Below are positions 11,980 through 63,468 of a stretch of 64,000 bases of DNA, piece after piece; within the stretch, counting starts at the first letter, position 1; each line of letters opens with the position of its first letter. A program made the position numbers and the translations under genes. Source of the stretch: Metabacillus flavus (GTDB lineage: Bacteria; Bacillota; Bacilli; Bacillales; Bacillaceae); the NCBI RefSeq assembly GCF_018283675.1, contig NZ_JAGVRK010000001.1:3410001-3474000 (forward strand), given 5' to 3'. The notes under the pieces are model-generated. The model saw only the letters and a program-made list of their open reading frames with translations. It was not told where the DNA came from and did no database searches.

Positions 11980-12069
11980 GAGGCCTGCAGGATGAAGGTC
12001 AGTTCTGTGTTGCGGCAGGACGCCGCGCTTTTAGCAGAACTTCCTTAATCCAAGGCGCTTCCGCTTTTC
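11980..12069. repeat. 90-bp direct repeat, copy A
   Basis: Bases 11980-12069 are identical to 12198-12287 over 90 bp by direct reading. The right end reads CAAGGCGCTTCCGCTTTTC. Confidence 0.95.
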
Positions 12070-12099: not shown

Positions 12100-12287
12100 G
12101 TTGTCTAGCTCCAGCGCCTAGGCCCTCGAGGTCATAAGCCACTCAACCTACGGAAGGAAAGATCGCCTTCCTTCGGCTGATTGCCTTATGCTTGTCGGAG
12201 GCCTGCAGGATGAAGGTCAGTTCTGTGTTGCGGCAGGACGCCGCGCTTTTAGCAGAACTTCCTTAATCCAAGGCGCTTCCGCTTTTC
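12100..12287. repeat. Bacillaceae hairpin repeat containing 90-bp copy B
   Basis: The element begins TTGTCTAGCTCCAGCGCC near 12100 and ends CAAGGCGCTTCCGCTTTTC at 12287. Its halves are partly complementary (AGCGCC with GGCGCT, CATAAG with CTTATG, GGAAGG with CCTTCC), so it can fold into a long stem. Bases 12198-12287 repeat 11980-12069 exactly. It ends on the base next to the pgk stop codon (12288-12290). Confidence 0.85.
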
Positions 12288-61846: not shown

Positions 61847-61875
61847 TTGACACATTACATAGGCCATGATAATAT
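61847..61875 (+). promoter_or_regulatory. Strong sigma-A promoter ahead of the SAM riboswitch
   Basis: Consensus -35 TTGACA at 61847-61852, 17-bp spacer, -10 TAATAT at 61870-61875, extended TG. Start expected near 61882, giving a leader of about 237 bases. Confidence 0.88.
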
Positions 61876-61910
61876 ACTTAAAACCAAGTAATTATATAGG
61901 ATTAATTAAA

Positions 61911-62062
61911 TTATCAAGAGTGAACGAGAGAACTGGCTCTATGACTTCACAGCAACCTCCATTTGGAAAGGTGCTCCTACCAGCAAAGCGCGATGCTTTG
62001 GCCGATAAAGAAATGTTGACCGTAAACTTTCTTAGCAGCCAATGCCAAAGAAGGTTTTTTTA
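61911..62062 (+). promoter_or_regulatory. SAM-I (S-box) riboswitch with transcription terminator
   Basis: The aptamer (61911-62008) has the S-box elements in order: TTATCAAGAG, GAGAACTGGCTCTATGA, CAGCAACCTCC, AAGGTGCTCCTACCAGCA and the closing GATAA, which pairs with TTATC to form P1. A 9-bp terminator stem (62025-62033 with 62048-62056) and a run of seven T follow. When SAM is abundant, transcription should stop before the hydrolase gene. Confidence 0.93.
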
Positions 62063-62118
62063 TTTGGCTGTTTCAAAGCTATCAAACAGAGTCTATTGTT
62101 TTAAGGAGGAAGGCAGTT

Positions 62119-62895
62119 ATGAAAGAACTGAAAAGAGTAATGACTGGCGCTCAGTCCTTTTCCATTCATAAGAGTTCTGAACAGGCCATTCTTTTGTGCC
62201 ATGGCTTCAACGGCACCCCTCAGAGTATGGAATCGCTGGGAGAAAAATTTGCCTCATTGGGCTATTCTGTTTATGCTCCCAGGCTTGCCGGACATGGTAC
62301 ATGTCCGTCCGATATGGAGCTTTGCTCGGTTCAAGACTGGTACCGCTCCTTGGAAACTGCTTATTTAAAATTAAGAAGCCGATTTAAAAAAGTATTTGTT
62401 ATCGGACAATCCATGGGCGGCAGCCTGACGATTAAGCTTGCCAGCCAATTCACGCAAATCGATGGAATAGGTCTTATTAATGCAGCACTTGAAGTTCCAG
62501 AGTATGAAAAGATTGTGGGAGATACAGGTTTCATTAAAGAAGGACGGCCAGATATAAAGGATCCGTCTGTGGAGGAAATCGCTTATGAAAAAATACCTGT
62601 TAAAGCCATTTCCGAGCTGAGAAAAGCTATGAATGAAGCAAAAGTCAAGCTTGCAGAAGTCACGTGTCCAGTCGTTGTATTCTGTTCTCCGGAGGATCAT
62701 GTTGTTCCTGCCGCCTGTTCTGAAAAGATTATGGAGTCCATTTCCGCCAACAGAAAAAAGGTGATTAGCCTTCCAAATTCTTATCATGTAGCCTCCATGG
62801 ATTTTGACCAGGATTTGATCGTAAGAGAAGCCAATCAATTTTTTTCCATACAAAAAACAGCCCTTCCTGCTAATAGGAAGAGCATGAACGCCTGA
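62119..62895 (+). CDS. Alpha/beta hydrolase (S33-type serine hydrolase) under SAM-I riboswitch
   Basis: Encodes 258 aa. Oxyanion motif LLCHGFNGTP, nucleophile Ser98 (GQSMGG), acidic residue in SPEDHVVP and His in NSYHVASMD complete the triad. AAGGAGG lies 9 bases before the ATG. Resembles monoacylglycerol lipase/carboxylesterase types; no signal peptide. Its SAM riboswitch links it to methionine, sulfur or methyl metabolism; the substrate is not known. Related in fold to the YvaK-like esterase at 5.3 kb. Confidence 0.9.
   Translation: MKELKRVMTGAQSFSIHKSSEQAILLCHGFNGTPQSMESLGEKFASLGYSVYAPRLAGHGTCPSDMELCSVQDWYRSLETAYLKLRSRFKKVFVIGQSMGGSLTIKLASQFTQIDGIGLINAALEVPEYEKIVGDTGFIKEGRPDIKDPSVEEIAYEKIPVKAISELRKAMNEAKVKLAEVTCPVVVFCSPEDHVVPAACSEKIMESISANRKKVISLPNSYHVASMDFDQDLIVREANQFFSIQKTALPANRKSMNA
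62851..62880 (-). terminator. Terminator of bioY, inside the hydrolase 3' end
   Basis: CTTCCT and AGGAAG form a 6-bp stem on the minus strand, with TTTTTTG following after GGCTG. It lies within the last codons of the convergent hydrolase gene. Confidence 0.55.
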
Positions 62896-62898
62896 ATT

Positions 62899-63468
62899 CT
62901 AGGCTGCTTGAACCTTTTGATTAAGCAGCTTCGCTTGAATAAGCCGTCTTCTTACAGCAATTCCAATCCAGCTCGCCAGCGCCGCTTTTATGAGGCCAAC
63001 TGCTACAAATGGCCAGACACCAACAGCAAGTGCCTTGTCCCACGGCAAACCTAAGACGATTTTTAGCCACACCGTTCCGAAGAGCAATGTAACCAGCATC
63101 CCAATCGTGTTTGCGGCGAGCGCAAACATGAGCGTAAACTTTGTTTTTTCAAGGAAATATCCTGTTAAAAACGCCGCCGCAATGAATCCGATTATGTATC
63201 CCCCGGTTGGCCCCGCCAATATGTGAAGACCGCCTTTCGCCTCCGCAAAGACAGGCAGGCCAATCATTCCAAGACCAGCATATACAGCCATAGCCAAGGC
63301 CCCATACCGGCTGCCGAGAATAGTAGCCGCAATTCCTACTGCTAATGTCTGTCCGCTAATCGGAACGATTGGAAGCGGAATTTCAATTTGTGCAAATACA
63401 GCTGTGATTGCCGCAAACATTCCAGATAAAATAAGCATGCGGAGCTTTTCCCTTTGTTTTTGCATCAT
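62899..63468 (-). CDS. bioY: Biotin transporter BioY
   Basis: Encodes 189 aa with six hydrophobic segments. The S-component signature blocks ISGQTLAVGIAATILGSRYGALAMAVY and GPTGGYIIGFIAAAFL are present. Works with an ECF energising module encoded elsewhere, or alone at low efficiency. A BirA operator lies directly upstream. Confidence 0.95.
   Translation of the reverse strand: MMQKQREKLRMLILSGMFAAITAVFAQIEIPLPIVPISGQTLAVGIAATILGSRYGALAMAVYAGLGMIGLPVFAEAKGGLHILAGPTGGYIIGFIAAAFLTGYFLEKTKFTLMFALAANTIGMLVTLLFGTVWLKIVLGLPWDKALAVGVWPFVAVGLIKAALASWIGIAVRRRLIQAKLLNQKVQAA

Follow-up and report, generated by a model that had tools for sequence, protein, structure and literature searches.

The link between a riboswitch of the SAM-I type and the gene of an alpha/beta serine hydrolase in the window (the whole stretch of 64,000 nucleotides of Metabacillus flavus DNA analysed here) is well supported, and because this riboswitch is conserved before the gene, often near methionine importer genes, the hydrolase is likely an unassigned enzyme of methionine metabolism. 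The observations behind this, all made by computation, are the fold of the aptamer, the terminator stems, the conservation of the pairing, the metN and msrA context and the residues of the catalytic triad. Judging from aligned leaders, the riboswitch also belongs to a distinct SAM-I lineage, in which the bases that contact SAM are retained and J3/4 and J4/1 are rebuilt.

Leader and hydrolase gene in the window

The first-pass annotation of this DNA had described a consensus promoter, a complete S-box aptamer and a terminator ahead of a 258-aa serine hydrolase of the S33 type, and had suggested a search with the Rfam SAM model. This search gave a full-length match to the covariance model RF00162 with 74.6 bits and an E-value of 1.2e-15, above the curated gathering score of 44.4 bits, in agreement with a complete aptamer. 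The features of the locus are:

61847-61875, forward strand: promoter-like element, TTGACA-17-TAATAT with a TG ahead of the second hexamer (10 of 12 consensus bases)
61908-62011, forward strand: SAM-I-type aptamer of the variant lineage (RF00162 match and class comparison)
62008-62033, forward strand: putative antiterminator, AAGAAA (62008-62013) with UUUCUU (62028-62033), read by eye
62024-62061, forward strand: intrinsic terminator, stem 62024-62057 and U-run 62055-62061 (fold of -11.0 kcal/mol)
62103-62109, forward strand: ribosome binding site AAGGAGG (from the sequence)
62119-62895, forward strand: 258-aa alpha/beta serine hydrolase with a GQSMGG elbow and the triad S98/D193/H223 (open reading frame and family matches)
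62899-63468, convergent to the hydrolase gene: bioY

The terminator described ahead of the open reading frame was recovered by folding, and its stem is absent from the list of a simple terminator scan. The possible antiterminator pairing overlaps both the 3' end of P1 and the 5' arm of the terminator. The S33 assignment holds as well, the protein matching Pfam Hydrolase_4/S33 with 87.9 bits. The promoter stands as a close match to the consensus, but with one site against 2.4 per shuffle the motif by itself is not above chance. In the aptamer, P2 reads GUGAA/UUCAC, J3/4 reads GGUGCUCCUACC, P4 reads CAAAGC/GCUUUG and a C precedes the GAU in J4/1.

This is the single RF00162 match in the window and one of 13 in the whole genome. 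The other 12 precede genes that, by eye, are metI/C-, yitJ-, metY-, cysH-, metN-, metK-, mtnW- and mtnK-like, permeases and some that we could not place, so that many resemble genes of methionine metabolism; metN lies away from the hydrolase locus in this genome. A terminator-like stem of the bioY strand (62860-62883, reverse strand) falls within the coding sequence of the hydrolase, at its 3' end, and elsewhere in the window two Bacillaceae-1 RNAs (11984-12050 and 12202-12268, reverse strand) lie ~150 bases apart.

Conservation of the pairing and genes behind the same leader type

The first-pass annotation had also proposed to look for SAM riboswitches before the same orthologue in other genomes. 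Within the genus of the window (g1), the orthologue is present in six of six genomes and RF00162 was found upstream of it in all six, including one (G001) in which the hydrolase is just 54% identical, and such conservation argues that the pairing is not due to chance. The family-level search gave a hydrolase match in 37 of 80 genomes. In genus g3, each of seven genomes holds two hydrolase homologues, of which the nearer is preceded by a riboswitch in 7/7 and the farther in 0/7; together with the window genus, this excludes a chance pairing. The pairing is also present in genus g5 of family f1 (genome G078) and in families f30, f17, f39, f47 and f62, the last of which we take to be Exiguobacterium, and thereby extends to a second order. 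The riboswitch was found at none of the loci scanned in genus g4, and in f30 three genomes have the pairing and seven other loci do not. Of the f30 loci that lack the riboswitch, five have a 16S gene upstream, as does L081, where the riboswitch is kept. A weak model match at L094 (28.1 bits) was antisense within another gene and was not counted. At another locus, L019 (G002:C8:74209-74976), the hydrolase match spans one in-frame TAG.

Wider searches, which sample evenly across larger groups, extended this distribution. At order level, a hydrolase homologue at E <= 1e-40 is present in at least 152 of 397 genomes, and a pattern of the leader that starts at P2 and ends in the 5' side of P3 matched 30 of the 397 genomes and 18 of 135 genera, as opposed to one match (in genome G142) for the reversed pattern used as a control. 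The gene after these 30 loci encodes the hydrolase in 12 (one of which, at L118, runs off the contig end), an uncharacterised protein of ~108 aa in 13, a shorter protein in four and a metY-like protein in one. At class level, BLAST matched the window aptamer in 67 of 398 genomes, most strong matches being from f62, where the next gene in 28 loci examined is the hydrolase in 16 and msrA in 12; the weak matches that we examined (L166-L172 and L175-L179) all have an ordinary J3/4 (12/12) and were used as controls. A contig scan by peptide patterns yielded a single relative, Bacillus sp. SJS. A plasmid search returned relatives below 60% identity throughout (159/159 records), which we did not use.

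Next to these counts we placed a tree of 92 hydrolases, 36 from riboswitch-bearing loci and 56 from loci without riboswitch, on which the riboswitch label requires four changes; shuffled labels required 28.7 on average and none of 500 shuffles was as low. The rows derive from 104 protein loci with 93 distinct proteins, of which L014 was omitted, leaving genome G003 without a row; the truncated L118 is absent. Because the root of the tree is not fixed, each change may be either a gain or a loss.

The neighbourhood of the hydrolase points to methionine. A divergent metN-like gene is close by in 22 of the 36 riboswitch-bearing loci, adjoining in 16 (2/3 in f30, 1/1 in f47 and 13/16 in f62) and separated from the hydrolase by a DUF4395 gene in six of seven g3 loci, and hence in four of the eight groups that have the pairing (g3, f30, f47 and f62). 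No metN was found near the hydrolase in g1 (five loci), g5 (one), f17 (two) or f39 (one), in counts that cover mostly 1.5 kb on each side and with some stretches short; the 56 loci without riboswitch gave one weak metN match of 36%. In all 22 loci one to three SAM aptamers lie ahead of metN. At L124:572-1589, four SAM aptamers fall within ~1 kb, three of them ahead of metN and the fourth ahead of the hydrolase. MetN was the best NCBIfam model for each of three metN-like proteins tested (all below its cut-off, two of them partial), and the complete one, tested against Pfam, has a NIL domain. In the remaining three of 16 f62 loci another divergent gene, identified by eye, takes the place of metN, a symporter-like gene in the case of L149. 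At L142 and L161, this gene is ribD-like, also read by eye, and has a SAM aptamer before it. In one genus, g3, a T-box with a metS-like gene (by eye) lies past the next gene in three of seven loci. Separately, an AAA ATPase and the DUF4395 protein flank the hydrolase in this genus (L036:674-1417 and L036:2629-3042), and at L081 a DUF4395 gene is downstream of the hydrolase.

The same type of leader precedes msrA in 12 f62 loci (L143-L147, L150-L152, L160, L162, L173 and L174), one of them confirmed by Pfam. Together with the metN and metS neighbours, this suggests a role of the hydrolase in methionine salvage, and the methionine link that had been proposed from the window has thus gained from conservation, from nearby metN and from msrA and metY behind the same leader type. 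At the metY-like locus (L105:1487-1765), the variant-class aptamer is followed by a lower-scoring second SAM aptamer and then by the gene. The ~108-aa proteins behind the variant leader (L101-L104, L106, L119-L123 and L128-L130) mostly start with MN-x-SG-x-IRG, and the shorter proteins in L112-L115 may be their relatives. A 112-aa member, the one searched, had no Pfam match at E <= 1, and a search of all six genomes of the window genus, run without a positive control, returned no copy of the small protein.

A variant lineage of SAM-I aptamers

To place the leader we aligned 56 distinct leaders of its class and, for comparison, 37 ordinary SAM-I leaders that come from these genomes or from related ones. 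The loci had originally been located by homology, pattern or BLAST, and the 56 leaders were chosen by P2/P3 similarity with at most six mismatches, two being added by hand; because the set was gathered in this way, there is some circularity in how conserved it looks overall. At L081, the leader (46.0 bits with the Rfam model) failed the P2 filter and lies outside the 56, although it counts as riboswitch-bearing in the tree. At the positions that we take to contact SAM, namely U7, G11, C44, A45, U57 and U88 in T. tengcongensis numbering, the bases are kept in 56/56 class leaders and 37/37 ordinary leaders. The two sets part in J3/4 and J4/1. Position 64 is A in 50/56 class leaders and U in 37/37 ordinary ones; position 85 is U in 45/56 or C in 11/56 as opposed to A in 35/37; position 62 is C in 53/56 as opposed to A in 32/37; and position 61 is C in 37/56 or A in 13/56 as opposed to A in 36/37. 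In the window leader, positions 61, 62 and 85 are C and position 64 is A, and it thus departs from the ordinary SAM-I sequence type, with A61-A62 and the (A85-U64)-A24 triple, which RF00162 does not require. Because the pattern behind the 30 order-level loci ends in the 5' side of P3, the result for J3/4 and J4/1 is free of circularity there, and in these loci positions 64-85 are A-U in 24, A-C in three, G-U in two and C-U in one.

The general architecture is that of SAM-I (S-box, RF00162), with which the class shares the four-helix fold with pseudoknot, the SAM-contact bases, the terminator and the association with methionine genes, whereas C at most of the 61 and 62 positions, the changes of U64 to A and of A85 to U or C, and nearly fixed letters of P2 and P4 across genera set it apart. 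The first-pass annotation was therefore right about the SAM-I type and overlooked the distinct lineage. For 33 distinct leaders of 34 chosen, 98.1% of cells are paired in the fold of P1-P4 and the pseudoknot, and seven pairs, including two of the four pseudoknot pairs, are changed on both sides (0/500 shuffles); these figures are favoured, because the structure was read from the window and the rows are related. In the same leaders positions 64 and 85 form a standard pair in 81.8%. In the SAM-bound structure, as described in the available text of PMC9580860, A61 and A62 make minor-groove contacts with P2 and (A85-U64)-A24 forms a triple, suggesting that the changes affect a tertiary lock rather than the ligand pocket.

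Because these positions are near-invariant in SAM-I, affinity or even the ligand could differ. We therefore considered that the variant aptamer senses a ligand other than SAM, as the concerted changes at 64, 85 and 62 might indicate, and for which there is a precedent in 13 SAM-I variants that sense spermidine and lie before polyamine genes (PMC10853860, available text). The two lineages are alike in deriving from SAM-I in Bacilli and in having a terminator, but according to the same text the spermidine class is altered in J1/2 and the P3 internal loop; these parts are ordinary here, their contact bases being unchanged in 56/56, and J3/4 and J4/1 are changed instead. Based on this disagreement of the altered regions, and on the fact that every nameable gene linked to the leader is a methionine gene, we rejected an assignment to the spermidine variant. 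Retention of the six SAM-contact bases throughout the class makes a non-SAM ligand in general quite improbable, and the metY-like gene, msrA and nearby metN fit SAM, which is most likely the ligand.

The alignment also bears on the origin of the leader. Given that the hydrolase is often divergent near metN, itself preceded by one to three SAM aptamers, the hydrolase leader could have been copied from that of its neighbour, in which case control of the hydrolase would have no function. Within the same genomes, hydrolase and metN leaders belong to different sequence lineages, which rules out a recent copy. Moreover, the hydrolase leaders of g3 and g71 are more alike (mean identity 0.864 over 12 pairs, excluding L081, the most divergent g71 leader) than the two metN aptamers (0.757 over 10 pairs and 0.782 over five pairs), and the pairing persists in the window genus where metN is not adjacent. 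We consider such hitch-hiking very unlikely.

The hydrolase and its possible role in methionine salvage

The predicted fold of the hydrolase is clear from homology. Its nearest solved structures are Bacillus-type monoacylglycerol lipases (3rli/3rm3, 4lhe and 7e04; 192.9 to 210.7 bits, 7e04 being best), with which it shares family and triad, and S98, D193 and H223 are invariant in 92/92 rows. It could therefore be a monoacylglycerol lipase of the ordinary kind, or an esterase of lipids, whose expression simply follows low SAM and which acts for instance in membrane lipid turnover during starvation. The elbow and the lid speak against this to some extent: the 12 lipase-type rows have GLSMG, the 36 riboswitch members and 44 relatives without riboswitch have GQSMG (L to Q97), and compared with the lipase-type rows the riboswitch members also differ at lid positions 141, 142, 144 and 154. 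The window protein accordingly has E141, G142 and P144 in place of A, I and S and falls outside the lipase sequence type (GLSMG elbow, AIGSD lid), but the 44 riboswitch-less members share these features in that the lid of GQSMG rows mostly differs from AIGSD. In addition, all seven g3 genomes hold a second homologue without riboswitch, and the one tested (L072) matches 7e04 with 407 bits, suggesting that L072, not the riboswitch copy, is the lipase orthologue. Wherever genes with this leader type or at this locus can be named, they belong to methionine metabolism, and the riboswitch before the gene is a further difference from the Bacillus lipases. A plain lipase is in our view unlikely.

Two other identities were discarded. 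MetX is not among the 14 NCBIfam matches of the hydrolase at E <= 0.001, in line with the earlier statement that the protein is not a homoserine O-acetyltransferase, for which there was no curated-model match. A link to biotin had been raised as a speculation from the convergent bioY, which would make the hydrolase a BioH-like carboxylesterase of biotin synthesis. The neighbour recurs in five of six genomes of the genus (the exception being G001), but bioY is at no other hydrolase locus (mostly 1.5 kb on each side), no BioH model is among the NCBIfam matches and BioC exceeds its curated cut-off in 0/6 genomes of the genus; with bioY confined to the genus and no BioC over the cut-off, we rejected this link and consider a role in biotin synthesis extremely unlikely.

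Our working hypothesis, which we hold with somewhat more confidence than doubt, is that SAM turns the hydrolase gene off through the riboswitch and that the enzyme cleaves (thio)esters or lactones in the cytosol as part of methionine salvage. When SAM is plentiful, the aptamer would close P1, the terminator at 62024-62057 would form and the hydrolase would be off; when SAM, and hence methionine, is scarce, the antiterminator would form instead and the hydrolase would be expressed alongside the methionine regulon. Folding of 18 of the 36 riboswitch leaders gave a stem before a U-run in 18/18 (-9.4 to -19.6 kcal/mol, with differing sequences and no shuffled control), which makes attenuation the likely mode, with ligand binding turning expression off. 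The enzyme would be a serine hydrolase of the cytosol, from a subfamily with kinship to Bacillus monoacylglycerol lipase, and together with MetNPQ would help to acquire or salvage methionine. SAM as the ligand, the direction of control, the cytosolic location and the substrate are what we infer from these patterns. Candidate substrates are small carboxyl (thio)esters or lactones of methionine or homocysteine, such as homocysteine thiolactone, our best guess being a thiolactone or else an ester of an amino acid. The human enzyme BPHL (valacyclovir hydrolase) is an alpha/beta serine hydrolase. It is described as a homocysteine thiolactonase (PMC4198189, available text) and thus illustrates a hydrolase acting on a thiolactone of the methionine cycle, as a functional analogy only; homocysteine thiolactone itself is produced by methionyl-tRNA synthetase according to the available text of PMC6378604.

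We also speculate, with clear reservations, that the leader represents a third SAM-I-type branch, next to ordinary SAM-I and the spermidine variant, in which both sides of the J3/4-J4/1 lock were exchanged together, perhaps with an effect on affinity or ligand, and that its genes (the GQS hydrolase, msrA, metY and the ~108-aa protein) form an unrecognised module of methionine salvage or repair, in which the hydrolase would be a bacterial enzyme that opens homocysteine thiolactone or cleaves methionine esters. According to PMC3766115, various genes of Bacillales that SAM riboswitches control probably belong to methionine or cysteine metabolism; its main text, as available, mentions no hydrolase, esterase or lipase. 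We found no paper on the riboswitch-hydrolase pairing or on the aptamer lineage in a search largely outside the subscription literature, where an earlier mention is possible. The leaders, a SAM-I lineage in which a tertiary contact has been altered in nature with the ligand pocket left intact, offer a comparison for affinity tuning or ligand change. The conserved RNA and recurring neighbours connect a hydrolase subfamily of uncharacterised function with the methionine regulon, which points to a concrete enzyme.
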